From Zymomonas sp. (GTDB lineage Bacteria > Pseudomonadota > Alphaproteobacteria > Sphingomonadales > Sphingomonadaceae), in NCBI RefSeq assembly GCF_020216885.1, contig NZ_JAIWON010000042.1, positions 1 through 16,939 on the forward strand: a DNA stretch of 16,939 nucleotides, written 5' to 3'. Numbering within the stretch: position 1 is the stretch's first letter; the number at the start of each line of letters is the position of its first letter. Position numbers and translations under genes: made by a program. Below are positions 1 to 16,820 of this stretch, in pieces. The notes beneath the pieces are model-generated. The model made no database searches. It worked only from the letters and a program-made list of their open reading frames with translations, and had not been told where the DNA came from.

Positions 1-626
1 TCAATCTGTTTTTGTATTTCGGCGGCAAACCATGCACCGGCATCTTGTCCTGCCAAACGATAATGATCGGGTGCTGGCACCAAACGCGTATTGGGAGACA
101 GACTTTGACCGCTACCAAGGGCAGGGGATGCACCAGAGGTCAGAAAACTGGTGCCGTGATAGGATTCCTGCGTCACGATAATGCCGGTGCCGCCCGACCA
201 TTCACAAGCAATGCGCATAGCCAGATCATTGGCTTCCGAACCGGTGCACATATACATGGCGCGATTAATTTCTTCTGGCATGGTTGCCAAAATGGATTCG
301 GAATAATCAAGGATGGTTTCATGCAAATAACGGGTATGGGTATTTAACCGCCCCATCTGTTCGTAAACGGCTTCAATAACGGCTGGATGACAATGCCCGA
401 TACTAGCGACATTGTTATAGACATCCAGATATTTATCCCCATTGGCATCCCATAAATAAGCCCCTTTTCCGCGCACCAGATGGACAGGACGGCGATAAAA
501 AAGGCGATAGGATGCGCCCAAAAGATCTTTACGGCGCTCGGTCAGAGAACGCGTTGCCTCATCCAAAGCGGCGGCATGTTCATCCCGAAAACTGTTCGTG
601 TCCATAATGGTAGAGCGACTTGACAC
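1..626 (-). CDS. Class III PLP enzyme, ethanolamine-phosphate phospho-lyase-like (partial, 3' end cut)
   Basis: The N-terminal 208 residues are visible; the C-terminal part, including the PLP-binding lysine, lies beyond the window edge. Translation gives a class III (ornithine/GABA aminotransferase-like) N-terminal domain with YLDVYNNVASIGHCHPAV (about residues 67-84) and the PLP-phosphate loop CTGSEANDLAMR. The run NNVAxxGHCHP followed by LNTHTRYLH resembles animal ETNPPL/PHYKPL (AGXT2L1/2), which are phospho-lyases rather than transaminases. They cleave phosphoethanolamine or 5-phosphohydroxylysine. I chose GTG at 624-626 because AAAAGGAGAA lies six bases upstream. The in-frame ATG at 603-605 has no good ribosome binding site and would lose seven residues. 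The gene diverges from the kinase at 845, which fits a kinase/phospho-lyase pair. Ordinary aminotransferase activity cannot be excluded from the fragment. Confidence 0.85.
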   Translation of the reverse strand, partial: MSSRSTIMDTNSFRDEHAAALDEATRSLTERRKDLLGASYRLFYRRPVHLVRGKGAYLWDANGDKYLDVYNNVASIGHCHPAVIEAVYEQMGRLNTHTRYLHETILDYSESILATMPEEINRAMYMCTGSEANDLAMRIACEWSGGTGIIVTQESYHGTSFLTSGASPALGSGQSLSPNTRLVPAPDHYRLAGQDAGAWFAAEIQKQI

Positions 627-844
627 AGTATTCTCCTTTTCAGGATTAAAAGAAAACTAATGTTCCAATTATGTCAGTCACCATTGAAACAAACTTGACG
701 GCAGAAGACATTCTTAATTTTTTTATGTCAAAAGTTTCGTCTTTTATTTCTTTGCGGTCAAAAAAGGGTCGTCTCCAGCCAAGTTATAAATCTCAACCTC
801 TTCTTATCATGACTCCAGAAAATAAACGTTCAGGAGTCTGCCAC
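627..844. promoter_or_regulatory. Divergent promoter region between lyase and kinase genes
   Basis: These 218 bases separate the two divergent starts and must hold both promoters. I see TTGACA on the minus strand (726-731) and TTGACG on the plus strand (695-700). Neither has a convincing -10 at normal spacing, which would fit activator-dependent promoters. No clear operator repeat is visible. Confidence 0.4.
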
Positions 845-1855
845 ATGAATTCCCGACATGCCGATAATCTTGATACCGCCATTCTTTCTCAACTGGCAGC
901 GCAAGCAATGAAGGCTTATCCTGAAGCCTATCAGGGGCAAATCCGGCTTTTAACGCGCTCGGAAAATGCGACTTTCAAAATCGCAACGCCTTCAGGTGAA
1001 TTTTACGCGCTCCGTCTTCACCGTCCTCATTATCATGACAAACAAAGCATTGCGGGCGAATTGGCATGGCTGAAAGCCTTACAACAAGATATCGGCTTGA
1101 CGGTGCCGCAAGCTATTCCTGACCGCGATGGGGAAGTGATTCAAACCCTAAAAGCACCCGATGGCGCGCTTCGCTATGCGGTGCTTTTCAATTGGGTAGA
1201 AGGCATCATGCCAACGGCTGATCTTGACCCCTCTTTATTTCAAAAACTGGGGGAAGTGACCGCCCATCTGCACCAGCATAGCCGACGCTGGAAGAAACCT
1301 GATAATTTCAAACGCCTTATTTGGAATCATGAAAATATGGTGGGAAGCCATAGCTATTGGGGCGATTGGCGCGCCACTCCGGGGCTAGATCAAAAAGGCA
1401 TCGCTATCATGGGCGAAGCTACAGAACAGATTGCTGAATCCTTGCAAAAATTCGGTCAATCCTCTGATCGTTACGGCCTTATCCATGCCGATCTAAGGCT
1501 CACCAATATTCTTATCCATGAAGGCAATACAAGGGCGATTGACTTTGATGACTGCGGCACCGGATGGTATCTGCATGACCTTGCGGCCGCTATCAGTTTT
1601 GAAGAACATCATCCGGCTTCACCTTTATGGGTCGAAAACTGGCTGAAAGGCTATGATCGGGTTCAGTCGCTGTCCCGCGAAGAAATTGATATTCTTCCGG
1701 CACTTTTCGCCCAAAGAAGAATCCAGATGACGGCATGGGTCGGCTCTCATGCCGATACCGATATGGCGCGTAGTTTAGGGGGTGATTGGCTAGCCCATAC
1801 AGTGCGCTTATGCCGTGACTATCTTGACGGAAAAACACCGCTTGGTGCCGCCTAA
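845..1855 (+). CDS. APH-fold small-molecule kinase (candidate ethanolamine/hydroxylysine kinase)
   Basis: This is a 336-residue cytoplasmic phosphotransferase of the aminoglycoside phosphotransferase/choline kinase fold (Pfam APH), a group that also includes SrkA, homoserine kinase II and hydroxylysine kinase. The catalytic loop HADLRLTNIL has H214, D216 and N221. The metal-binding DFD equivalent is IDFDDCG with D233. The N-lobe has ENATFKI and YALRLHR, the likely ATP-binding lysine-substitute strand. I start it at ATG 845 because GGAG at 833-836 is eight bases upstream. An in-frame ATG at 671 would add 58 low-complexity residues outside the fold and has no ribosome binding site. It is divergent from the phospho-lyase-like gene and has its own terminator. 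The family is clear; phosphorylation of ethanolamine is inferred only from the neighbours. Confidence 0.88.
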   Translation: MNSRHADNLDTAILSQLAAQAMKAYPEAYQGQIRLLTRSENATFKIATPSGEFYALRLHRPHYHDKQSIAGELAWLKALQQDIGLTVPQAIPDRDGEVIQTLKAPDGALRYAVLFNWVEGIMPTADLDPSLFQKLGEVTAHLHQHSRRWKKPDNFKRLIWNHENMVGSHSYWGDWRATPGLDQKGIAIMGEATEQIAESLQKFGQSSDRYGLIHADLRLTNILIHEGNTRAIDFDDCGTGWYLHDLAAAISFEEHHPASPLWVENWLKGYDRVQSLSREEIDILPALFAQRRIQMTAWVGSHADTDMARSLGGDWLAHTVRLCRDYLDGKTPLGAA

Positions 1856-1896
1856 AAAACGATCCAAGCCAGACTCTCTTTCCAGACTTTCCATCT

Positions 1897-1941
1897 CTTC
1901 CTTCATAAAATTACGCTATTTTATAAGGAAGGGATTTTTTT
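1897..1941 (+). terminator. Rho-independent terminator of the kinase gene
   Basis: The arms CTTCCTTCATAAAAT (1897-1911) and ATTTTATAAGGAAG (1918-1931) pair with one bulged C around a 6-base loop. GGA and seven T residues (1935-1941) follow. It starts 42 bases after the kinase stop, so the kinase is probably transcribed alone. Confidence 0.8.
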
Positions 1942-1960
1942 AAATTTTATATTGCAATTT

Positions 1961-1982
1961 GATAACATAATATGATGTTATC
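1961..1982. promoter_or_regulatory. 22-bp palindrome upstream of the AraC-family gene (putative operator)
   Basis: GATAACAT and ATGTTATC are perfect 8-bp inverted arms with a 6-base centre. A consensus TATAAT follows at 1992-1997 with no recognisable -35, so the palindrome sits where a -35 would be. A smaller inverted repeat, TATCC-ATTTA-GGATA, overlaps at 1979-1993. The position suggests a transcription factor site controlling the regulator at 2059. Which protein binds is unknown. Confidence 0.5.
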
Positions 1983-2058
1983 CATTTAGGATATAATTTT
2001 GGGCATATTCATAGACTCATTATCCTGATGAACCGCATGCCAAGGAAAGTCTGGAAAT

Positions 2059-3129
2059 ATGACATCTTCTCTAAATACAGCTTTCTCGAAAACCCTCCCT
2101 TCTTTTGAAGAAGTCCATCATGGTGTTCTTGCCGCCGCTGGAAGCGGACTTGGCGATTTTATTAAAAAAACAGGCGGTGATGCTGATCGTGTTTTTGGGT
2201 CATGCGGCGTTGATCCGGCGATTATGGAACGCCCAACACACAGCCTTAGCCTCACCAATTATTGTCGCTTGATGGAAGAAGCCGCAATCGATTCCCAAAA
2301 TGGAAATTTCGGGCTGCATTATGGCAAGCAATTCCAGCCACAAAATCTTGGGCTAATCGGTTATATTGGCCTTTCTTCTCCGACATTGGGTGACGCCCTT
2401 TCCAATGTCGCAAAAGATTTTCACTGGCACCAACATGATACCTTAACCCGCTTTGTAAAACGGGAAAATCAATGGCATTTTGAATATCAGGTCAGACATG
2501 GTGCCATTACAAGACGGCGGCAGGATGCCGAGCTTTCTATGGGGATGATTCTTAACATCATCCGCAGTGCGCTTGGCTCGAAATGGACACCACAAGAGGT
2601 CAATTTTGAACATTATCGACCGGAACAAGCAGATGAACATGAAAAAGTGTTTGGTGCGCCTGTCTGGTTTGAACAACCCTGCAACTCTATTGTTCTTTCT
2701 GAAAAAGACCTGATGCGTTCGATGCCGGGTTATGAACCGGTCTTATTGACAGTAATGCGGGAAACCATCCGTCGTCTGAACCGCCATAATGTGCCACAGT
2801 CATTCCCTGAACGGGTGAGGGCGATCATCCGTATCATGCTGCCACAGGATGATTTTTCTCTTGAAAAGATTTCCGAAAAAATGGTGATGACGCCTTGGTC
2901 TTTGCAACGGCGGCTGAAAGAAGAAAATGTCACTTTTCTCACGCTGATAGATTCCGTCCGTAAAGAAATGGCTATCGACTATATGAAGCAACCCCATCTA
3001 ACGATTTCAGATATTACCTTTATGCTGGGCTATTCCGAGGTCTGCGCTCTTTCGCGGGCTTTCCGGCGCTGGTTCGGTGTCAGCCCCCGCGCATGGCGTA
3101 AAAATTATGCCACCCATCCCAAGGCCTGA
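2059..3129 (+). CDS. AraC-family transcriptional regulator with Arabinose_bd-type N-domain
   Basis: The product is a 356-residue regulator. The N-terminal part (about 30-215) matches the layout of the Arabinose_bd (PF12625) domain seen in OruR/ArgR-like AraC proteins, including NFGLHYGKQFQP and LGLIGYIGLSS. The C-terminal part (about 252-350) holds both AraC helix-turn-helix units: FSLEKISEKMVMTPWSLQRR and the family signature ITFMLGYSEVCALSRAFRRW followed by FGVSPRAWR. AAGGAAAG at 2042-2049 precedes ATG with nine bases spacing. Lying between the kinase/lyase pair and the permease-porin operon, it is the likely local activator. Regulators of this subtype often respond to amino acids or amines. 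The actual ligand cannot be read from the sequence. Confidence 0.92.
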   Translation: MTSSLNTAFSKTLPSFEEVHHGVLAAAGSGLGDFIKKTGGDADRVFGSCGVDPAIMERPTHSLSLTNYCRLMEEAAIDSQNGNFGLHYGKQFQPQNLGLIGYIGLSSPTLGDALSNVAKDFHWHQHDTLTRFVKRENQWHFEYQVRHGAITRRRQDAELSMGMILNIIRSALGSKWTPQEVNFEHYRPEQADEHEKVFGAPVWFEQPCNSIVLSEKDLMRSMPGYEPVLLTVMRETIRRLNRHNVPQSFPERVRAIIRIMLPQDDFSLEKISEKMVMTPWSLQRRLKEENVTFLTLIDSVRKEMAIDYMKQPHLTISDITFMLGYSEVCALSRAFRRWFGVSPRAWRKNYATHPKA

Positions 3130-3169
3130 ATAAAAGGCCGCTGATAACCAATAATAGGGCTTTGTTTTG

Positions 3170-3206
3170 ATCCTGCACCGGAATTCTTCCGTGCGGGATA
3201 ATTTTT
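3170..3206 (+). terminator. Rho-independent terminator after the AraC-family gene
   Basis: ATCCTGCACCGGAA (3170-3183) pairs with TTCCGTGCGGGAT (3187-3199) with one bulge and one G-T pair around a TTC loop. AA and five T residues (3202-3206) follow. Confidence 0.75.
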
Positions 3207-3358
3207 ATACCGCCTCTTACATCCTTATCCTGTCTCTCTCACTTACCGAAAACCCCTTTTGATAAGCCGTTTTTGGGCTATCCCTCTTCATCGACAGAGT
3301 TCTTTAAAAACGGTAAATTATCACGAAAGACTAAAATTTATTTTCAATAAACAACAAA

Positions 3359-3386
3359 TTGTCATTAAGGGTCAAGTTTATATGCT
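3359..3386 (+). promoter_or_regulatory. Candidate promoter of the permease-porin operon
   Basis: TTGTCA (3359-3364) and TATGCT (3381-3386) are 16 bases apart. An alternative is TTGCCG (3391-3396) with CTATAG (3414-3419), 17 bases apart. Both are only near-consensus, so regulation by the adjacent AraC protein is plausible. Confidence 0.35.
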
Positions 3387-3448
3387 TTCATTGCCGATAT
3401 GGTTTTCTTGTGACTATAGAAAATCCGGTAAGGGGAGAGTCCTCCAAG

Positions 3449-4858
3449 ATGCCAGAAAAATCTCCGAAGCTTTCAAAAACGCTTAGCTCTTTTCATCTGT
3501 GGGGCATCGCCGTCGGCCTTGTGATTTCAGGTGAATATTTTGGCTGGAGCTATGGCTGGGCGACCGCGGGAACCATGGGTTTTCTGATCGCGACGGTTAT
3601 TGTTGCGGCTATTTATACCAGTTTCATTTTCAGCTTTACAGAACTTACCTGCTCTATTCCGCAGGCAGGGGGGCCTTTTGCCTACAGCTTTCGGGCTTTA
3701 GGAAAATGGGGCGGTGCTATTGCCGGTATGGCGACCTTAGTTGAATTTTTATTCGCGCCTCCGGCTATTGCTCTAGCCATCGGTTCCTATCTCAATGTGC
3801 AATTTCCGTCACTTTCTCCTAAAATGGCGGCGGCTTGCGCTTATATCATTTTCATGGCTTTGAATATCGTGGGTGTCAGAATCGCCGCGACATTCGAACT
3901 TTTCATCACTGTTGCGGCTATTTTTGAATTATTGGTTTTCATGGGGGTCGTTGCGCCTGCTTTTTCATGGGAACAATTCTTGCATGACGGCTGGGGTGTT
4001 GCCAGCCATTTCGACATTCAGGCCATTGGCGGGATATTTGCTGCCGTGCCTTTTGCAATCTGGTTCTTTCTGGCAATCGAAGGGGTCGCAATGGCCGCCG
4101 AAGAAGCCAAAAATCCCCGCCGTTCTATCCCCATCGCTTATACAGCTGGTATCTTAACGCTGGTTTCTCTTGCTTTCGGTGTGATGGTTTTCGCCGGTGG
4201 TTCTATGGATTGGCATCAGCTTGCTAATTTGAATGATCCGCTACCTCAAGCCATGAAACATGTGGTCGGTGCGCATAGCGGCTGGTTACATATGCTTGTT
4301 TTCCTCGGCCTCTTTGGACTGGTTTCTTCCTTGCATGGTATCATCATGGGCTATGGTCGCCAGATTTTCGCGTTGGCAAGGGCAGGTTTCCTTCCAGCAA
4401 CGCTTGGGAAATTACATATCAAACTGCAAACGCCCTATGCTGCGACTATCGCTGGTGGTTTAGTCGGTATCGCCGCCATCTTTGCCGATGATGTTCTGTC
4501 TTTCGGCGGTCATTCTCTTACGGCTATTTTGGTAACAATGTCGGTTCTTGGCTCGCTTACTATGTATGTGTTGAGCATGGTCAGCCTGTTCCGCCTGCGG
4601 CAAACCATGCCGGATTTACCACGCCCTTACAAAGCGCCTCTTTATCCTTTCTTGCCTGCCTTAGCGCTGATTGGGGCATTTTTCCTGCTCGCCGCCGTTA
4701 TTTATTATAATGCCGGCATCTCCTTCATCTATGCGCTTTTAATGTGCATTGCCTGCCCGCTTTGCCTTTACAGCTACAAGCGGAGCCAAAACAAAAAAAC
4801 AAAAGAAAACGATATCACGACATCTGCCATTCTCGCTGCCGAGGGGGCGGAAGAATAA
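3449..4858 (+). CDS. eat: Ethanolamine permease-type APC amino acid/amine transporter
   Basis: This is a 469-residue inner-membrane transporter of the APC superfamily with about 12 hydrophobic segments. The first helix HLWGIAVGLVISGEYFGWSY, then FSFTELTCSIPQAGGPFAY and LVEFLFAPPAIALAIGSYLN, closely resemble the ethanolamine permease (Eat, TIGR00908-type) group as I remember it. IEGVAMAAEEAKNPRRSIP is the conserved APC loop. I start at ATG 3449, preceded by GGGGAGAG at 3432-3439 (about ten bases away). The in-frame ATG at 3359 would add 30 residues with no family similarity and no ribosome binding site. The porin gene begins 44 bases downstream, so the two probably form an operon. Substrate by family is ethanolamine in symport; a related amine remains possible. 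Confidence 0.85.
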   Translation: MPEKSPKLSKTLSSFHLWGIAVGLVISGEYFGWSYGWATAGTMGFLIATVIVAAIYTSFIFSFTELTCSIPQAGGPFAYSFRALGKWGGAIAGMATLVEFLFAPPAIALAIGSYLNVQFPSLSPKMAAACAYIIFMALNIVGVRIAATFELFITVAAIFELLVFMGVVAPAFSWEQFLHDGWGVASHFDIQAIGGIFAAVPFAIWFFLAIEGVAMAAEEAKNPRRSIPIAYTAGILTLVSLAFGVMVFAGGSMDWHQLANLNDPLPQAMKHVVGAHSGWLHMLVFLGLFGLVSSLHGIIMGYGRQIFALARAGFLPATLGKLHIKLQTPYAATIAGGLVGIAAIFADDVLSFGGHSLTAILVTMSVLGSLTMYVLSMVSLFRLRQTMPDLPRPYKAPLYPFLPALALIGAFFLLAAVIYYNAGISFIYALLMCIACPLCLYSYKRSQNKKTKENDITTSAILAAEGAEE

Positions 4859-4902
4859 GCGGTCAACGCAGCGACTGTTTTTGTGAAAAAAGGATGTCCG
4901 AC

Positions 4903-6336
4903 ATGCGCTATTACACCTTATCTTTTTGCTTTGGTTGCTGTCTTATTGGCATGGTCGGTATGAAATCGCCCGCCTTGGCAGAAGTCCAAACGGGCGATAC
5001 GCCAACCCCACCGGCTGAGCTTTTGCAAAAGGCGGCTCCTGATAAAGCTGACTATGAACAGTCACAAGACCCTGATTTACCCGCTCTTGAAGCGGGAAAT
5101 CTGTTTCACAGTAAAGGCGGAAAATTGTCTTATTGGGACGGCCTTGTCGGCCATGCCATGATTGAAGGGGGAGCGAATGGAAACCCTGTTACCCATTCAG
5201 GCCGCAACTTCGGGCAGTATTTTACCGATAAATCCAATACTGGTACGCTTAATCAGATCACCGCGTCTATTTCCCATCCCGTCACCCCAATCGGGAAAGG
5301 CTATGGCATCGGTTTTGTGGTAGAAATGCTCTATGGTTCCGATGCGCGGGTCGATCCTACCTTAGGTATGGGCGATGGAACGTTAAAAGGCGGCTATCAA
5401 TGGGCGCCAACCCAAGCCCATATTGATGTTCACACCCCTTGGCTTTTCAAGCATGGTATCGATTTCCAAGTCGGGCAGATGTATGGCCTGATGGGGGTCG
5501 AAGGTATCCCAGCCCTAGCGCGCCCTTTCTACAGCTATAACTACAGTTCGGATTATATTGTCCCCTTTGAAACGGTAGGAATCGTCGCGACAATGCATGT
5601 CTCTCGCGATATTGATGTCTTGCTGGGCATAGATTCCGGTAATGCTTCGACTTTTGGTAATGCTACCGTCAATAAACAACCCAAAGGCTATGCGGGTCTG
5701 GTCTTCAAAAATCTGCTGGATAACAAAATGACCATTCGCGCCATTTCCCATTTAGGGCCCGCGGGTAACTCTGGGACAGCCGTAACCTCACCAGAAGGCT
5801 GGACGAGTGCGGGTATCGGTTCGGCGGCCAACAAGCTGATGCAATATAATGTTGAAGTCAGCATGAGCTACCGCTTCACCGACAAGGTCACCTTTACAGA
5901 AGACATCATCGTCGATCGGGATGAATCCATCCGCGACACCGCTTATGGCTTTACCTCTTATGTGGCATGGGATTTACGAAAAAATCTGACTCTGAATTTT
6001 CGGGGAGAAATCTTCCGCGACAATACGGGCGGGGTTATTACCCAATTTATCGGTAGTGATTCCTACAGAAATTACCTCCGAAATCGGCCTTATGTCTATT
6101 ACAGCGCCCCTGCGACCACTTATGGCGAGCTGACCGCTGGTGTGTCATGGAGACCGCCGGTCATCAACGATCATCTGGGGAAGGGGACTTTTACCTTACG
6201 GCCAGAACTCCGACTGGACAGATCGTTAAATGGTACGCATCCCTTTAACCGAAGTGCCTCGGTCATGAATCCGGTGGTAACAAACGGAACCCGAAATATG
6301 TTCTGGGTCAGCTGCGATGCCATTCTTAGCTTCTAA
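4903..6336 (+). CDS. Outer-membrane beta-barrel porin, BBP2/OmpL-like
   Basis: The 477-residue precursor has a signal peptide with a hydrophobic core and a cleavage site after SPALA (residue 26). The mature part is rich in alternating aromatic/polar strands (for example YGIGFVVEMLYGSDARVD and GIDFQVGQMYGLMGVEG) and ends in phenylalanine (CDAILSF), the usual BAM-recognised C terminus. The layout fits the Putative beta-barrel porin-2 (BBP2) family. ATG 4903 is favoured over ATG 4894 because AAAAGGA ends eight bases before it and 4894 overlaps that site. It is the second gene of the permease operon, suggesting it admits the same substrate through the outer membrane. The specificity is inference. 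Pore function was not demonstrated by anything in the sequence. Confidence 0.85.
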   Translation: MRYYTLSFCFGCCLIGMVGMKSPALAEVQTGDTPTPPAELLQKAAPDKADYEQSQDPDLPALEAGNLFHSKGGKLSYWDGLVGHAMIEGGANGNPVTHSGRNFGQYFTDKSNTGTLNQITASISHPVTPIGKGYGIGFVVEMLYGSDARVDPTLGMGDGTLKGGYQWAPTQAHIDVHTPWLFKHGIDFQVGQMYGLMGVEGIPALARPFYSYNYSSDYIVPFETVGIVATMHVSRDIDVLLGIDSGNASTFGNATVNKQPKGYAGLVFKNLLDNKMTIRAISHLGPAGNSGTAVTSPEGWTSAGIGSAANKLMQYNVEVSMSYRFTDKVTFTEDIIVDRDESIRDTAYGFTSYVAWDLRKNLTLNFRGEIFRDNTGGVITQFIGSDSYRNYLRNRPYVYYSAPATTYGELTAGVSWRPPVINDHLGKGTFTLRPELRLDRSLNGTHPFNRSASVMNPVVTNGTRNMFWVSCDAILSF

Positions 6337-8172: not shown

Positions 8173-8615
8173 AATCCAGATCCTTTCAGGGACAGATAAT
8201 GATGAAAATGGTTATCCTAATTTTAAAATATTCAAATAATTTCAGATAAAAAAGTTCTTCACAAAGATACGAAATTATCTTTTAAAAAAGACAAAACCAT
8301 TTCAACATCTACTATGGGGTTAAACGCATGACATGAAATTTAGATCATTTTTTCTCACTATATATCTATTTTTTCGCACGATTGAGCGCAGACTATTATC
8401 TTGTTATTTAGAAACCCAAAATCAGAATTTTTATTCGCGTAAAAGCCGCTATCCCCGTGTAATCAAAAACAAAATTTGGTCGCCCTTCATTCTTTTTTGG
8501 CCTGTCCCCCTATATTGAAAATGGATTTTGTTTCCTGACCTTCCATTCCTGCCGCTTGGCTCAAAATCTTGTCCCTTTGGTTGTTATAGAAAGAACAACC
8601 AAGGATATAATCATC
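8173..8615. other. AT-rich divergent intergenic region
   Basis: These 443 bases separate two divergent genes. Near the 170-residue protein, TCACAA (8259-8264; minus-strand TTGTGA) has a weak -10 17 bases on. AAAGATA/TATCTTT (8263-8282) is a perfect 7-bp inverted repeat with a 6-base centre overlapping that -35, a possible operator. A 61-codon open frame at 8333-8518 lacks a ribosome binding site and recognisable sequence. I see no RNA gene here. Confidence 0.45.
8577..8602 (+). promoter_or_regulatory. Hairpin/operator overlapping the dehydrogenase ribosome binding site
   Basis: TTGGTTGTT (8577-8585) and AACAACCAA (8594-8602) are perfect 9-bp arms with an 8-base loop. The right arm runs into AAGGA (8601-8605), the ribosome binding site of the gene at 8616. 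It could act as an RNA hairpin limiting translation or as a DNA operator; TATAGA sits in the loop region. Confidence 0.5.
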
Positions 8616-9461
8616 ATGGGACATATTCTGATTACGGGTGCCGGTAGCGGTTTTGGGAAAGAGATTGCTTTCCGTTTGGCAGAACAGGGACATTCCGTTA
8701 TTGCTGCCGTCGAAATCCAGCCCCAGATATTTGCCTTGCAGCAAGAAGCTCAAAAACGCGGCCTCTCTTTATCAATAGAAAAATTGGATATCACCGACCC
8801 GGCTGATCGCGCCAAAGCATGGCAATGGGACGTTGATATTTTACTGAATAACGCTGGCATTTCCGAAGGCGGTTCGGTTGTCGATATTCCGGCAGAAAAT
8901 CTTCGGAAACAATTTGAAGTCAATGTGATAGGCACAATTTTGCTCACGCAAGGCTTTGCCCGCCAGATGGTCAAAAATAAAAAAGGTCGAATTGTTTTTA
9001 TGTCCTCGGTCGCCGGTCTTACCGTTGATCCTTTTACGGCTGCTTATTCGGCTTCAAAACATGCGATAGAAGCCTTTGCGATGGCCTTGGATAAAGAACT
9101 GAAATATTTTGGCATCCAAATCGCGACGATTAACCCAGGGCCTTTCCTGACGGGTTTCAATGACAGAATGTTTGAAACATGGAAAAGCTGGCGCGATAAC
9201 CCCGAAGAGAGGGTTTTTGACTATAGTCAACTCGCTTTCCCGCATGAACAATTCGATCCAGAAGAGGTTATCACAACAACGCTTTCTGTTCTGACGGGAA
9301 AAACCAAGCATTATCGCAATCTGCTGCCTGCCAAAATGGAAAAGGATATTGAAAAACAGATCAATCATGTCTGGGATAAATTGCAAAATAATCCAGAAGG
9401 GGGCGCGAAAGATCCTCTGGTGCAGAAAGCCTATCAAATAAAGCCAGGAACGCCAGCCTAA
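8616..9461 (+). CDS. Short-chain dehydrogenase/reductase (SDR), substrate unknown
   Basis: The product is a 281-residue NAD(P)-dependent oxidoreductase of the classical SDR type. The Rossmann motif TGAGSGFG is at residues 7-14, NNAG near 78-81, the catalytic serine in SSVAG near 130-131, and YSASK with Y144 and K148. PGPFLTGF is the post-catalytic PG motif. ATG 8616 places the glycine motif at the expected distance from the N terminus and has AAGGA ten bases upstream. An in-frame ATG at 8556 would add 20 residues before the first strand and span the hairpin. The acidic residue after the second strand (AAVEIQ) suggests preference for NAD over NADP. The substrate cannot be told from the sequence. 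It appears to be transcribed alone. Confidence 0.9.
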   Translation: MGHILITGAGSGFGKEIAFRLAEQGHSVIAAVEIQPQIFALQQEAQKRGLSLSIEKLDITDPADRAKAWQWDVDILLNNAGISEGGSVVDIPAENLRKQFEVNVIGTILLTQGFARQMVKNKKGRIVFMSSVAGLTVDPFTAAYSASKHAIEAFAMALDKELKYFGIQIATINPGPFLTGFNDRMFETWKSWRDNPEERVFDYSQLAFPHEQFDPEEVITTTLSVLTGKTKHYRNLLPAKMEKDIEKQINHVWDKLQNNPEGGAKDPLVQKAYQIKPGTPA

Positions 9462-10477: not shown

Positions 10478-11326
10478 TTAGCGGTCTTCGCTAATCCGAT
10501 GATATAATTCTGGTCGCCGATCACGGAAAAAACCGAATGCCGCGCGATGTTGTCTTATTTGCTCAATATCAAAACGAGCTACCAAAACGCCGCTTTCATC
10601 TTTGCCAAAGGCTTGCACTAAATCGCCACGCTGATCGGCAATAAAGCTATGACCATAAAAAGACAGCTCACCTTCCTGACCAATCCGGTTCGATGCGATG
10701 ACAGGCACGACATTGGAAACGGCATGACCAATCATAGCCCGCCGCCACAAACGACTGGTATCCAGATCGGGATCATGGGGTTCATTTCCAATCGCCGTCG
10801 GGAAAAAGAGCAACTCCGCACCCATTAACATCATGGCGCGCGCTGTTTCAGGATACCATTGATCCCAACAAATACCGACACCTATCTTGATGCCGCCACA
10901 ATCCCAGACTTTAAAACCGCTATTACCGGGGCGGAAATAGAATTTTTCTTCATAGCCGGGGCCATCGGGAATATGACTTTTGCGGTAAACGCCCATAATC
11001 TCACCCTCTGAATTGATCATGGCAAGGCTGTTATAATAATGGGGCGGATCGCTTTCAAAAAAGCTAGTCGGAATAGTCACTTTCAACCGCTTGGCTAGCT
11101 TTTGCATGGCTAAGACAGCGGGATGCTCTTCCACTGACTTTGCGCGTGCAAAACAGCTCTCATCTTCGGTTGCGCAGAAATAATGACCTTCAAATAATTC
11201 AGGCGGTAAAATAATCTTGGCACCTTTGGCCGCCGCTTCCTCGACCAATGCTGAAACGCGGTCAATATTGGTCTGGATATCATCCGTCAAAGCTAGCTGT
11301 AATGCGGCTACAGTGATTTCAGTCAT
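10478..11326 (-). CDS. aguB: N-carbamoylputrescine amidase
   Basis: The 282-residue nitrilase-superfamily enzyme hydrolyses N-carbamoylputrescine to putrescine, carbon dioxide and ammonia. The catalytic triad is visible: E43 in ILPPELFEG, K116 in YRKSHIPDG, and C153 in GVGICWDQWYPE. ICWDQWYPE and the later WRRAMIGHAVSN and VPVIASNRIG segments are typical of AguB as opposed to other carbon-nitrogen hydrolases. ATG 11326 is chosen because AAGGA lies seven bases upstream; the in-frame ATG at 11365 lies inside aguA and adds 13 non-family residues. The ribosome binding site overlaps the aguA stop, which implies translational coupling. With aguA it makes putrescine from agmatine without a urease step. 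Confidence 0.95.
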   Translation of the reverse strand: MTEITVAALQLALTDDIQTNIDRVSALVEEAAAKGAKIILPPELFEGHYFCATEDESCFARAKSVEEHPAVLAMQKLAKRLKVTIPTSFFESDPPHYYNSLAMINSEGEIMGVYRKSHIPDGPGYEEKFYFRPGNSGFKVWDCGGIKIGVGICWDQWYPETARAMMLMGAELLFFPTAIGNEPHDPDLDTSRLWRRAMIGHAVSNVVPVIASNRIGQEGELSFYGHSFIADQRGDLVQAFGKDESGVLVARFDIEQIRQHRAAFGFFRDRRPELYHRISEDR

Positions 11327-11337
11327 CAATAATTCCT

Positions 11338-12318
11338 TCAGGCTGGCCATTGCTGGGAAATACAATGGAAACTGCCACCCCCCGTCAGAATGTGACCGGC
11401 AGGCAAGGCGACGACTTTTCGGCTTGGGAATAGGGCTTCCAATGCCTGAACAATCGCACCATCATTTTCGGCTCCATAAACCGGAACGACAACGACCTTA
11501 TTGCCAATATAGAAATTCATATAGGAAGCCGGAACAACCTCATCATCAATCGTAATCCGTCCGGTAGAGGGCAGGCGGGTGACTTTCACGCCAAAATCTG
11601 TCGCGATTTGGGCGGCTTGGTCATAGACTTCCCGATTAGGGTCATCCTGATGGGTGGCCACTGGCACAACCAGATGATTTTCACCGACAAAACGAGCAAG
11701 GTTATCAACATGCCCATCGGTATGGTCATTATGCAGGCCTTTTCTCAGCCACAATACACGGTCATAACCCAGATCATCCCGCAAATGACGAGCAATATCA
11801 CCCCGCGATAATTCAGGATTGCGGTTTGGGTTTAACAGACATTCTTCGGTTGTAACGACCAATCCATGACCATCACCATCAATGGAACCGCCTTCCAAAA
11901 CCCAATCTTTTTCTAAAACGGGCAGGGTTGTATCCTTCGCAAGATCACGTCCAATAGTCTGATCACCCTCAAGATTATATTTCCCGCCCCAGCCATTGAA
12001 ACGGAACAAAGCCAGCGCCTTTCTGTCACCCTCTTTGACGAAAAGCGGGGCGTTATCTCTCAACCAAATATCCCCGAAAGGATGGCAGATAACCTCAATA
12101 TCCGATCCCGCCATTTTTACAGCCTGATCGGCTGCTTCTTTATTAGCCACCACCAGATAAACTTTTTCCCCTTCACCTTTTGCTGAAACAGCCTTGGCAA
12201 AAGCAACCACTTCGGCTTGCGCCGGTTCCAAATCTTCAAGCCAAAGAGAGGCGTCACTAGGGAAACCGATCCAAACCGCATCATGCGGCATCCACTCGGC
12301 AGGCTGATGGTAAGGCAT
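11338..12318 (-). CDS. aguA: Agmatine deiminase
   Basis: The 326-residue enzyme of the peptidyl-arginine-deiminase-like fold hydrolyses agmatine to N-carbamoylputrescine and ammonia. Conserved blocks are HPFGDIWLRDNAPLF, WVLEGGSIDGDG, GLHNDHTDGHVDN (catalytic His/Asp) and the C-terminal GGGSFHCISQQ with nucleophile C319. The length is slightly short of the about 340-370 usual in the family, but all motifs are present. AGGAAGAG lies nine bases before ATG 12318. It is first in the operon, with aguB starting 11 bases after its stop. No arginine decarboxylase is in the window, so the agmatine source lies elsewhere or outside the cell. Confidence 0.95.
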   Translation of the reverse strand: MPYHQPAEWMPHDAVWIGFPSDASLWLEDLEPAQAEVVAFAKAVSAKGEGEKVYLVVANKEAADQAVKMAGSDIEVICHPFGDIWLRDNAPLFVKEGDRKALALFRFNGWGGKYNLEGDQTIGRDLAKDTTLPVLEKDWVLEGGSIDGDGHGLVVTTEECLLNPNRNPELSRGDIARHLRDDLGYDRVLWLRKGLHNDHTDGHVDNLARFVGENHLVVPVATHQDDPNREVYDQAAQIATDFGVKVTRLPSTGRITIDDEVVPASYMNFYIGNKVVVVPVYGAENDGAIVQALEALFPSRKVVALPAGHILTGGGSFHCISQQWPA

Positions 12319-13571: not shown

Positions 13572-16500
13572 TTAGGATTCGACCCTGTTTCGTCCATTAT
13601 TTTTGGCCCAGTAAAGCAAACTATCGGCTTTATCGAGGGCAACCGAAATAGATTCCTCTGTTGTTATTTCAAAAAGACCAATGCTGACCGTAATTTTTAA
13701 TTCTGTTTCACCATTCTTGATCACTATTTTCGTGAATTCATTGCGTATCCGTTCAGCGATATGGCGGGATATCTCAATCGAAGCCGAAATCGCTATGATA
13801 AATTCATCGCCTCCATAGCGACCGGCAAAATCTTCCTGACGGATATTATTGCAAATAATTGAAGCGGCATTTCGCATGACATCATCACCGACCAGATGGC
13901 CGTAACGGTCATTGATTTTTTTGAAATGGTCAACATCCAGCATTGCAATTGAGATTGCATTGTTATTCAACAAAGCATCCTGATGCAATTCGCTCAATTT
14001 AGCCATCAAAGCCCGACGGTTTAAAAGCCCCGTCAAAACATCAGTATTGGCCAGTTCACTTAATTGTTTATTCGCCTGCTGCAATTCATGGGTGCGGTCA
14101 TCGACCAAATGCTGCAATCGCCTTGTGCGTCTTTCTAATAAGAAGGTGCGAAATAAGACCGCCCAATATAAAGCCAGCAAGATTAACGCCACTACCGCGA
14201 TCCCAATGGGCCAATGTTCATACCAACGCGGCGCAACTTTAAACAAAAAACGCGCTTCTTTTTGATAAGAATGCAGACCGAGAACTTCTGCCCGCATATG
14301 CAGGGTGTAATGGCCACTCGGCAAATTGGTATAGATTGCCACCGGCGGGGTATTGTCCGGTATCCTAATCCATTCGGAATCGATGCCTTCCAGCTTGTAA
14401 CTATATCTGACATCATTAGGCGCACTATAATCAGACAAGATAAAGCCAACACGAAGCGATCGGGTTCCGGGTGGAATATCGAATATCTGGTCAGTATGGG
14501 GCAACAATCCAAAAGGCAGCGTTTTCTCGTTCAAATCAAGCGCTGTTATCTGAATTTTCGTCGCACTATTCCCACCATTGCCTAATTGAGCAGGCGAAAA
14601 CAGGATTTGTTCAGGCGCAATAACGGTTAACCCGTTGGTGCCACCGAAAAGGATTGACCCGTCTTCGGTTAAGACAGACGCTCTCTGGCTAAAATGACCA
14701 CTCGAAACATGGTCACGCTGCCCCAAAAAATGACTTTGTCTGTTAACGGAATCAAAAACCGAAATACCGTCGGGACTGGATGACCAGATATGACCGAATT
14801 TATCGACAATCAGGCGATTGATCTCATTCGATGAAGGTTTATTTTTCCGGTAGATATTATTGAAATTATATCCATTTTTTGTCGGAAAGAGATGGCTAAT
14901 CCCATTAAAACTACCAACCAACATACTATTATCATTGTCTGTCGCGAGGGATGTTACAAAGCTATGGGAAAAAAGCAGCCGTTCATCTGGCTTTCCTAAT
15001 AGATTATTAAATCCAGAGCGATGCGTGTCATGAATACTGATACCATCGGTTGTTGCGATCCAGACTTCTTCATTCGACCGCACGGCAATGTCTTTGATAT
15101 GGTCGCCAATCAGGCTGTTTTTGTCATCGATATTATGAGTAAAATGAGTAACTTTTTCGGTGCCTCTATCTTTGACGTAAAGACCGCTATTCGTTCCGAT
15201 AAAAAGATTATATTTGGTCTCAGCTAGGGCTGTAATCGTCTCTTTGCCTAAAATATCATCCATGATAGCGGTGGTTGAAAAATTATTCGGATCAATCCGA
15301 GCAAGCCCCAATGAACCCGCTAGAATAGCGCCATCCTTTGCCTGTAAAAAGGCTCGGACTGGCTGCGCCATTTGCAAGCCTTTCAGACTTATTTTCTTAA
15401 TCTGGCTTCTTTGCTGGTCGATCATGTTGATCATGCCATTTTGAAGACCAACCCATATTCGGCCTTTTTCATCGGCTAACAATGCTTCAATTGAATCGCT
15501 AATCATGCCGTTTTTATCGACCAGAATATCAGGCAAATTAAAGGCAATAGAGGGATGAGGATTCCATCTGGATACACCGCGATCGGTTGCAATCCAGATA
15601 CCGTCATCACGGTCAGCCATAAGAGACAGGATATTATTGCCGCTTACAGAATGGTCATTCAGCGGATTATGCGTCCATGTTCTGACATATCCGGTATATT
15701 CTTCTCCCGGAGGTGCGCATAATTTCCCTTTGGTTCCAGCTGTCCAAAAGGCATAATCAATAATACCGCCACCCATGGTCGCAATCCAGATATGATTATC
15801 CGGTAATTCGGCAAAGCCGTGAATACTTCTGTAATTCAAATAGGGTGATGAGGCTTTTAACGGTTTGGGCTGATAAAAACGGCCATCCGCGGTCATATAA
15901 AGACCACCATGAAAGGCTGATCCAACCCATAATCTATCGTCGCGATCTTGATAGAGCGCCGTAATCTGGCTAGTTAAAAGGGTATCTATTTCCTTTTCCG
16001 AAGAACGAAGCTCTGTAAAAACGTCATTCTCTTTTCGGCGGGAAAAAAGACCATCATTACTGGCAATCCACAGGCGATTATCCTTTGTTACCAAAAGATC
16101 AGTAATATGATGGATGTCTTTCTTATCCGAAAAGGGCAGCTTTTTTTCGTAATGAATAGAGTTACTACCCGCTTTTAGATGTCCAATTCCGGCATCGGAA
16201 ATAACCCAAAAACCGTTGTGGTTATCCGAAGCAATAACTTGGATAGATAGGCCGCGCCCTGTCGGGGCATCTGAAGATATCGGGTCAAAATAATTGTTTT
16301 TAGGATCGAAACGGATAACGCCCGCCGTTGCCGTTCCTAATAGAAAACCACCACTATTTTGGGGGCGCATGGTGCGAATAATACTGTCGGGCAAACTATG
16401 GGGCTGATTGGCTTGCGGCCTGAATAGCTGGATATGAAGCCCGTCAAAGCGAAATAGGCCATTCGCAATATTGATCCATATCAAGCCATCCGAATCCTGC

Positions 16501-16820
16501 ATAATTGCATTGACCGTTGTTTGCGGCAGATTCGGGATAGCGCCCATATCGGTAAAAAAAGCAGATTGGAAATTCTGCCAACCATGCATAGAATCGATAA
16601 CACCGGGCAAGTGAAAGGTTTTTTCTGCCCGACATTTGATGTCTTCATTCGCTGAACGCGAAGATATGCCTTCCCAATGAGACAATAGCGGGCGACCATG
16701 CGCAAGCATTGCCTGAACGGGTATGCCTAAAAAAAGACACCATAAAAATATCGGTAATAAAAACCGATAGAATTTTGGCCTTTTCGATTTGCCCGATATT
16801 CTCATGTTGAACAGTGTCAT
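13572..16820 (-). CDS. Membrane diguanylate cyclase with double propeller sensor (Reg_prop, Y_Y_Y, GGDEF)
   Basis: The 1082-residue protein would make cyclic di-GMP in response to a periplasmic ligand. A basic then hydrophobic N terminus (FYRFLLPIFLWCLFLGIPVQA) is a signal peptide or anchor. From about residue 95 to 745 I count 14 short repeats of the Reg_prop kind (WIATTDGISIHD, WIASNDGLF, WVGLQNGMI), enough for two seven-bladed propellers. A Y_Y_Y-like Ig domain follows (about 785-850, YSYKLEGIDSEW). A transmembrane helix (about 868-888) leads into a short coiled coil and a GGDEF domain with intact GGDEF at 1003-1007. RQED five residues before it fits the product-inhibition I-site. Start is uncertain: neither ATG 16820 nor the in-frame ATG five codons later has a ribosome binding site. 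The ligand is unknown. Confidence 0.92.
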   Translation of the reverse strand: MTLFNMRISGKSKRPKFYRFLLPIFLWCLFLGIPVQAMLAHGRPLLSHWEGISSRSANEDIKCRAEKTFHLPGVIDSMHGWQNFQSAFFTDMGAIPNLPQTTVNAIMQDSDGLIWINIANGLFRFDGLHIQLFRPQANQPHSLPDSIIRTMRPQNSGGFLLGTATAGVIRFDPKNNYFDPISSDAPTGRGLSIQVIASDNHNGFWVISDAGIGHLKAGSNSIHYEKKLPFSDKKDIHHITDLLVTKDNRLWIASNDGLFSRRKENDVFTELRSSEKEIDTLLTSQITALYQDRDDRLWVGSAFHGGLYMTADGRFYQPKPLKASSPYLNYRSIHGFAELPDNHIWIATMGGGIIDYAFWTAGTKGKLCAPPGEEYTGYVRTWTHNPLNDHSVSGNNILSLMADRDDGIWIATDRGVSRWNPHPSIAFNLPDILVDKNGMISDSIEALLADEKGRIWVGLQNGMINMIDQQRSQIKKISLKGLQMAQPVRAFLQAKDGAILAGSLGLARIDPNNFSTTAIMDDILGKETITALAETKYNLFIGTNSGLYVKDRGTEKVTHFTHNIDDKNSLIGDHIKDIAVRSNEEVWIATTDGISIHDTHRSGFNNLLGKPDERLLFSHSFVTSLATDNDNSMLVGSFNGISHLFPTKNGYNFNNIYRKNKPSSNEINRLIVDKFGHIWSSSPDGISVFDSVNRQSHFLGQRDHVSSGHFSQRASVLTEDGSILFGGTNGLTVIAPEQILFSPAQLGNGGNSATKIQITALDLNEKTLPFGLLPHTDQIFDIPPGTRSLRVGFILSDYSAPNDVRYSYKLEGIDSEWIRIPDNTPPVAIYTNLPSGHYTLHMRAEVLGLHSYQKEARFLFKVAPRWYEHWPIGIAVVALILLALYWAVLFRTFLLERRTRRLQHLVDDRTHELQQANKQLSELANTDVLTGLLNRRALMAKLSELHQDALLNNNAISIAMLDVDHFKKINDRYGHLVGDDVMRNAASIICNNIRQEDFAGRYGGDEFIIAISASIEISRHIAERIRNEFTKIVIKNGETELKITVSIGLFEITTEESISVALDKADSLLYWAKNNGRNRVES

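Follow-up and report, generated by a model that had tools for sequence, protein, structure and literature searches.

We predict that a gene cluster at the beginning of a Zymomonas contig is a B12-independent ethanolamine catabolic locus working by a kinase/phospho-lyase route, and place the probability of this sequence-based reading at roughly 70%. The first-pass annotation had proposed the same route, and the proposal gains support from the clade of the PLP enzyme, the conservation of the gene neighbourhood and the absence of EutB; substrate and activity stay at the level of prediction. Whether bacteria use ethanolamine is commonly judged by eutBC and vitamin B12. Were there a second route, free of B12 and recognisable by clear marker genes, such predictions would change for many plant-associated bacteria.

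The window, that is the whole stretch of 16,939 nucleotides analysed here, corresponds to contig C43 of the genome from its first base on. The genes for permease, kinase, PLP enzyme, porin and AraC regulator are all present in it and indeed lie together as first described, the PLP gene as a fragment:

1..626, minus strand: 5' part of a class III PLP gene for a predicted O-phosphoethanolamine phospho-lyase; 208 codons with a GTG start at 626, the rest on contig C42 (L005:1477-2191)
627..844, no strand: divergent intergenic control region of the PLP and kinase genes, conserved in four Zymomonas genomes
751..769, plus strand: 19-base block, possible regulator site, identical in four Zymomonas genomes
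845..1855, plus strand: APH-fold small-molecule kinase of 336 residues, predicted ethanolamine (amino alcohol) kinase from domain, motifs and homologue length
2059..3129, plus strand: AraC-family regulator with PF12625 and HTH_18 domain matches and a match to the NCBIfam QhpR model
3449..4858, plus strand: APC-family permease, TIGR00908 ethanolamine permease
4894..6336, plus strand: outer-membrane porin by its domain match (PF07642, BBP2), 35 bases 3' of the permease

The PLP gene is partial in the window (codons at 3..626, minus strand) because the left contig end cuts it. Contig C42 (10,000 bases) ends within the same gene, and joining C42 and C43 end to end yields a single open frame of 446 residues with one codon spanning the joint. 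Since the gene continues in frame on C42 and is uninterrupted in the three other Zymomonas genomes searched (98, 93 and 89% identity), we rejected the idea of a broken gene. The kinase start is set at about 845, because homologues are approximately 335 residues long and the stretch upstream shifts frame in another Zymomonas (L007), where the in-frame extension is thus not conserved as coding sequence; on these grounds a start at 671 was rejected. For permease and porin, visual inspection of ribosome-binding-site-like spacing and of a start resembling a signal peptide makes 3449 and 4894 more likely starts than the listed ORF ends.

The PLP enzyme links the locus to phospho-lyase chemistry. Two solved structures stand closest to it: 6tor at 355 bits, the human ethanolamine-phosphate phospho-lyase, and 5g4i at 318 bits, the Arthrobacter phospholyase named A1RDF1; the next relative scores 183. 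Placement outside the ETNPPL clade had been named as refuting the original proposal, and a tree of 53 rows places the gene inside it. The enzyme shares with both references a clade of 40 rows (support 98/96), and is thereby grouped with characterised phospho-lyases, apart from transaminases. A lysine at residue 418 occurs in all 40 rows of this clade and in none of the 13 remaining ones, three of which are gapped at this site. The PLP lysine and the lyase-clade residues GKPMGNG, NVLK and FNTF.GNP are present as well. Fusion adds a connection to the kinase: all four fused ORFs checked, out of six fetched, combine APH with Aminotran_3, and the NCBIfam model PRK06148 aligns with the kinase over model positions 26-291 and with the PLP enzyme over 575-1010, neither match reaching the whole-protein cut-off. 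On this sequence evidence the PLP enzyme is predicted to be an O-phosphoethanolamine phospho-lyase.

The same observations bear on two other ideas: that the pair serves a different phosphorylated amine, for instance hydroxylysine, or that an ordinary transaminase happens to lie beside the kinase by accident. Human PHYKPL is the sister of ETNPPL, with a kinase that is APH-like too, and PHYKPL is absent from our tree. Clade and residue pattern, the kinase-PLP fusions, the co-occurrence of both genes across genomes and the ethanolamine-type permease (TIGR00908) all argue against this explanation, which we regard as quite unlikely.

The kinase carries an APH domain with intact catalytic motifs HADLRLTN and DFDDCG and is a predicted ethanolamine (amino alcohol) kinase. 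It was also considered as a homoserine kinase, a function rejected on its score of 38.6 bits against a cut-off of 255.9 and the presence of a separate ThrB (501 bits) in the genome. The nearest solved structure is 6ef6 (225 bits), presumably the (S)-1-amino-2-propanol kinase of M. smegmatis, which leads to the main rival of our reading. In it, the same chemistry would operate on 1-amino-2-propanol derived from aminoacetone: phosphorylation of this amino alcohol would be followed by its cleavage into propionaldehyde and ammonia, a scheme reportedly proposed for the Rhodococcus/Mycobacterium microcompartment. Besides the identity of 6ef6, this substrate is favoured by the Erwinia enzymes, which are said to act on both amino alcohols, and by the Aut cluster, where PMC6620236 places an APH phosphotransferase together with a class III enzyme. 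Furthermore, PLP enzymes of the window's clade are also found at loci linked to an SDR dehydrogenase. Five of these eight loci (L067, L070, L071, L074, L084) encode a PLP enzyme 44-51% identical to that of the window, and the four of these five included in the tree all fall within the phospho-lyase clade, so that this clade alone cannot tell ethanolamine from aminopropanol.

Other features speak for ethanolamine over aminopropanol, where the assignment of the SDR-linked loci (8 of 80 kinase loci) to the aminopropanol type is solely an analogy. In a kinase tree covering 34 of the 80 loci, all eight SDR-linked kinases lie outside the 24-row clade that contains the window's kinase (support 100/99). 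A close permease accompanies none of the eight SDR-linked loci and 56 of the 72 others; as the loci counted are related to one another, the p value of this contrast serves as a rough guide. SDR-linked L074, which has a TIGR00908 permease, is an exception to the rule of permease type. The window does contain an SDR gene (8556-9461), but it lies beyond a tRNA gene and rnc and is 28% identical to the linked dehydrogenase, itself an aminopropanol dehydrogenase by analogy; this may speak against the aminopropanol route and lends no support to the window's SDR as a member of the system. The lack of shell genes in Zymomonas points the same way, and we consider aminopropanol an improbable substrate, albeit the best of the alternatives to ethanolamine.

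Conservation of the neighbourhood, a check originally called for, was found for four of the five genes. These four, encoding kinase, regulator, permease and PLP enzyme, appear together again in gamma- and alphaproteobacteria, and their grouping is therefore beyond chance; the porin was found in Zymomonas only (one of the 80 kinase loci), L007 having it as well. A relative of the AraC regulator (>300 bits) is encoded at 66 of the 80 loci and a close permease at 56, and the PLP gene falls outside the fetched flanks in 36. At the genome level, 22 of 24 kinase-bearing genomes have a PLP orthologue (74-93% identity), the exceptions being G009 and G012, of which only the former has EutB. Among 197 genomes of one order, the five with a PLP orthologue all belong to the six with the kinase. 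Two Pectobacterium loci (L008, L010) link kinase, regulator, permease and PLP genes.

No further constant member of the locus was found, and the locus in the window contains no acetaldehyde-handling gene. L074 is the one locus with an aldehyde dehydrogenase gene directly next to the others; relatives with 31-41% identity lie farther off in L069, L009, L022 and again L074. For phospholipase C and a TonB receptor, L078 was the sole locus with a match. The placements seen in single loci are between the permease and PLP genes of a Pseudomonas for the aldehyde dehydrogenase, and between the kinase and the regulator-permease pair of Gluconobacter for phospholipase C.

An absence of EutB, likewise named as a check in the first-pass annotation, was found in all four Zymomonas genomes (E. 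coli control positive) and in 21 of the 24 kinase-bearing genomes, EutB being present in the other three. The genome of A. baylyi DSM 14961 has the kinase and the PLP gene and lacks EutB. Likewise, the shell protein PF00936 is absent from the four Zymomonas genomes, with positive controls in E. coli and Synechococcus. Avoidance of EutB is not significant in the sample of 197 genomes (0/5 with a PLP orthologue versus 35/192, p 0.59), where one of the six kinase-bearing genomes, G084, has EutB.

The permease exceeds the curated TIGR00908 cut-off for ethanolamine permeases (565.3 versus 381.75 bits). So do all nine divergent permeases (35-39% identity) at kinase loci and the two of the 56 close ones that were scored, from L008 and L078. 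The AraC-family regulator passes the QhpR model with 301 bits at a cut-off of 250. Porin and permease, with their 35-base gap, are probably on one transcript. The control region at 627..844 with its flanks has a mean column identity of 84% in a 313-column alignment of four Zymomonas genomes, and the 19-base block, a single copy in the window, is a possible regulator site. Promoter-like sites do not exceed those in shuffles (9 versus 9.4 on average); for terminator-like sites the figures are 11 and 8.0.

In the proposed mechanism, porin and Eat-type permease would import ethanolamine, which the kinase would convert with ATP to O-phosphoethanolamine. The PLP enzyme would then eliminate phosphate and, after hydrolysis, release acetaldehyde and ammonia, and the AraC regulator would activate the genes in response to ethanolamine or its phosphate. 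Zymomonas is generally known to reduce acetaldehyde to ethanol, and the net gain would thus be ammonia and re-oxidation of NADH at the cost of one ATP. Alternatively, the kinase/lyase pair might chiefly balance phosphoethanolamine for membrane lipids instead of supplying nitrogen. Human ETNPPL is discussed in terms of lipid balance; that the Zymomonas locus has uptake genes and a regulator of its own runs counter to such a role, and we hold it to be highly improbable here.

Following up on the ethanolamine reading, we put forward a wider proposal tentatively and at somewhat less than even odds. The module may be the gene basis of the B12-independent Erwinia route described biochemically half a century ago. 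It may have passed by horizontal transfer between bacteria living on sugar-rich plant material (Zymomonas, acetic acid bacteria, Pantoea, Tatumella, Rosenbergiella and several Acinetobacter), the one kinase having been combined with ethanolamine permeases of two separate lineages. In Zymomonas it might also act as a redox sink from ethanolamine to ethanol. If true, an old pathway gains its genes, and models of an industrial ethanol producer gain a nitrogen and redox input.

The chemistry and the kinds of enzyme are already established; for their arrangement beside a dedicated permease and regulator, the literature searched gave no published example. Searches for the bacterial kinase and phospho-lyase gene pair, or for ethanolamine use in these hosts, yielded no title or abstract opening among the matches listed (in part the first 20 of 733, 40 of 106 and 20 of 23) that describes the pair in ethanolamine use, in a collection with few subscription papers. 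Human ETNPPL (6tor) and the Arthrobacter phospholyase (5g4i) belong to the same class III PLP clade and have similar residues at the compared sites, whereas the Zymomonas enzyme is bacterial and encoded beside kinase, permease and regulator. Mallette and Kimber reportedly described in 2018 the aminopropanol kinase and a candidate phospholyase of the Aut/RMM cluster. This microcompartment cluster likewise combines an APH-fold kinase, a class III PLP enzyme and a permease (PMC6620236); Zymomonas differs in having no shell genes and, apparently, no linked SDR of that type, and its permease is of the ethanolamine type. The EutBC/Eut system has the same substrate and products as predicted here, but Zymomonas lacks both EutB and shell genes. 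The gamma-glutamyl-ethanolamine route, which is not known to need B12, resembles the Zymomonas locus in this respect, yet glutamylates its substrate rather than phosphorylating it. PMC9397018 assigns that route to Chromohalobacter and Streptomyces, and describes eat as a functional, non-homologous equivalent of eutH. The Erwinia route has the same two reactions as proposed for Zymomonas; no gene assignment for it was found in the literature searched. This route of amino alcohol kinase and phospho-lyase is said to come from work of the Turner group in the 1970s, and Pectobacterium, two loci of which link the four genes, is a genus formerly placed in Erwinia. Compared with the Erwinia route, the Zymomonas locus adds a porin and a host that makes ethanol.

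The genes that the first-pass annotation had read as a possible B12-independent ethanolamine catabolic locus, and the tRNA gene beyond them, are arranged as follows.

Window left end, minus strand: class III PLP gene, truncated
845-1855, next after the PLP gene, plus strand: APH-fold kinase
After the kinase, plus strand: AraC-family regulator
After the AraC regulator, plus strand: amino-acid-type permease
After the permease, plus strand: BBP2 porin
After the porin, minus strand: tRNA-Thr

The genome, of the genus Zymomonas, comprises 1.92 Mb in 184 contigs, the window (16,939 bases) being contig C43. A class III search of this genome located the missing C-terminal half of the PLP gene at the end of contig C42; once the two contig ends are joined, the reading frame stays open over 446 residues, and just one codon spans the joint. 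The gene is uninterrupted in all three other Zymomonas genomes searched (98, 93 and 89% identity), and Z. mobilis AN0101 (L007) holds all five genes in the order of the window. The closest kinase cluster, 91% identical to the window kinase, carries the name Zymomonas mobilis. Contigs C42, C162 and C163 are exactly 10,000 bases each; C42 abuts the window and breaks off within the PLP gene, and class III gene pieces lie at the ends of C162 and C163 too. Elsewhere in the window, an N-carbamoylputrescine amidase (above the TIGR03381 cut-off) overlaps an agmatine-deiminase-like gene that matches in two stretches, under both curated cut-offs (10478-12318, minus strand). A 1082-residue sensor-like protein (13572-16820, minus strand) carries two-component-propeller repeats and a Y_Y_Y domain, with a GGDEF domain at its C-terminus.

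Among solved structures, the PLP enzyme is closest to human ethanolamine-phosphate phospho-lyase (6tor, 355 bits) and an Arthrobacter phospholyase (5g4i, 318 bits), followed by a racemase at 183 bits, and it contains the GKPMGNG motif with the PLP-binding lysine. A tree built from 53 class III sequences chosen by hand, human PHYKPL not among them, bore out the proposed ETNPPL kinship: 40 rows are set apart from 13 other class III rows by a branch with 98/96 support. The 40 include the window enzyme with its close and its middle relatives, both phospho-lyases and the PLP domains of six long, fused open reading frames; exact positions are unsure because some branches are long. All 40 clade rows have the lysine of the NVLK motif (residue 418 in the window enzyme), which none of the 13 others has; three of those are gapped there. 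Since the clade also takes in middle relatives from kinase loci with a nearby SDR dehydrogenase (L067, L070, L074 and L084), membership in it says more about the type of reaction than about the substrate. At six kinase loci (L079, L080, L081, L082, L085 and L086) the class III enzyme is only 24-28% identical to that of the window; the three of them placed in the tree (L079, L081 and L085) and a second Burkholderiaceae enzyme (L075) form a clade outside the phospho-lyases. Such an enzyme may be a microcompartment-type partner of the kinase.

The kinase has an APH domain whose HADLRLTN and DFDDCG motifs are invariant or nearly so across 13 aligned sequences, window included, and a separate homoserine kinase is encoded elsewhere in the genome. 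Among solved structures 6ef6 comes closest (225 bits, the next reaching 83); the database labels it as aminoglycoside phosphotransferase and nothing more, and it is presumably the (S)-1-amino-2-propanol kinase associated with a microcompartment in Mycobacterium smegmatis (Mallette and Kimber 2018). Compared with the same-genus genome G222, the kinase has diverged more than its neighbours, being 91% identical against 98% for the PLP protein and the fetched part of the AraC protein.

Several observations tie kinase and PLP enzyme together. Fused proteins exist, with APH and Aminotran_3 domains matched in all four long open reading frames checked (six fetched). The NCBIfam model PRK06148 covers both proteins, its first third matching the kinase (48.6 bits) and its last part the PLP enzyme (469.4 bits), each under the whole-protein cut-off of the model. 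Scanning named genomes with a kinase alignment and fetching flanks of up to 9 kb around the best 80 kinase loci confirmed that the neighbourhood is conserved: 66 hold an AraC regulator above 300 bits, 56 a permease of at least 55% identity (35-39% in a further 9), and a PLP enzyme is present at 70% or more in 24, at 40-70% in 14 and under 40% in 6, the remaining 36 having none within the flanks. Searching 24 of these genomes in full (5 whose flank holds a close PLP gene and 19 whose flank holds none) revealed an orthologue of 74-93% identity in 22, all but Acetobacter peroxydans and Erwinia mallotivora; hence 17 of the 19 have the PLP gene beyond the fetched flank. In Pantoea G005, the genome checked for distance, the two genes sit on different contigs. 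A less biased sample, 197 genomes from the order of this Pantoea searched three times, yielded the kinase (390 bits or more) in six and the PLP orthologue (750 bits or more) in five, all five among the six (Fisher p 2.6e-9, relatedness ignored and with one of the five, G005, being the chosen centre of the sample). The sixth, G084, combines EutB with a PLP enzyme of 46% identity, and in one further genome, G143, a 36% kinase occurs alongside a 46% PLP enzyme.

The substrate is addressed by the permease, which exceeds the TIGR00908 ethanolamine permease cut-off (565 versus 382 bits). All nine divergent permeases at kinase loci (35-39% identity) pass as well, as do both close ones tested of the 56 (L008 and L078), so two permease lineages with one curated call are joined to the kinase. 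This second lineage (36-39%) lies near the kinase in seven Acinetobacter loci (L037, L035, L044, L055, L065, L066 and L069). A similar SDR dehydrogenase (E under 1e-60) accompanies 8 of the best 80 kinase loci. A 38-row kinase tree, made up of 34 of the 80 loci, two further stretches, the window and 6ef6, places all eight SDR-linked kinases outside the 24-row clade (100/99) of the window kinase, and four of them group with 6ef6 in a 9-row clade. None of the eight has a close permease, versus 56 of the 72 others, and the permease of one of the eight, the Pseudomonas locus L070, has no NCBIfam match at E 1e-40. We infer that the SDR type would serve an aminopropanol route and the window type an ethanolamine route. 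Against such a split, SDR-linked L074 has a TIGR00908 permease, and five of the eight (L067, L070, L071, L074 and L084) have PLP enzymes 44-51% identical to that of the window; in the other three (L081, L085 and L086) identity is under 30%. Two individual loci give further context: Pseudomonas toyotomiensis has an aldehyde dehydrogenase gene between permease and PLP genes, and in Gluconobacter sphaericus the kinase is separated from the regulator-permease pair by a phospholipase C and a TonB receptor (L078:10218-14749), which might perhaps free phosphoethanolamine from lipids.

EutB, the marker of the B12-dependent route from which the first-pass annotation had set the locus apart, was sought and is absent from all four Zymomonas genomes searched, as is the shell protein PF00936, and from 21 of 24 kinase-bearing genomes; one of the three with EutB is the Acetobacter lacking the PLP orthologue. 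Of the 197 sampled genomes 35 have EutB, among them one of the six with the kinase and none of the five with the PLP orthologue, the latter contrast being not significant (p 0.59).

The divergent PLP-kinase intergenic region (218 bases) is well conserved across four Zymomonas genomes, with a 19-base block at 751-769 identical in all. The regulator passes the model of QhpR (301 versus 250 bits), which controls an amine dehydrogenase cluster. No PLP enzyme above 49% identity was found in the 31 other genomes of the family searched, yet acetic acid bacteria and gammaproteobacteria have relatives at 72-79%, which suggests that horizontal transfer may have been involved.

The biochemistry of the pathway was described in Erwinia, and the M. 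smegmatis kinase and the Arthrobacter phospholyase are earlier described enzymes. The ethanolamine-type arrangement, in which a permease and a regulator accompany such enzymes, was not found in the literature searched. Class III enzymes are noted to include few lyases, one being ethanolamine-phosphate phospho-lyase (PMC8154272), and the Aut cluster is described as having an APH phosphotransferase together with a class III enzyme, with a different scheme proposed (PMC6620236). PMC9397018 names the gamma-glutamyl route and eat, the word phosphoethanolamine not being found in that text, and PMC9426561 reports Acinetobacter baumannii using ethanolamine via eutBC. Together with the Erwinia work and the two enzymes, these papers indicate that neither the idea of the pathway nor the kinds of enzyme are new. 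Within the reach of sequence evidence, the reading as a B12-independent ethanolamine locus is supported, and an old pathway without assigned genes thereby becomes directly testable.
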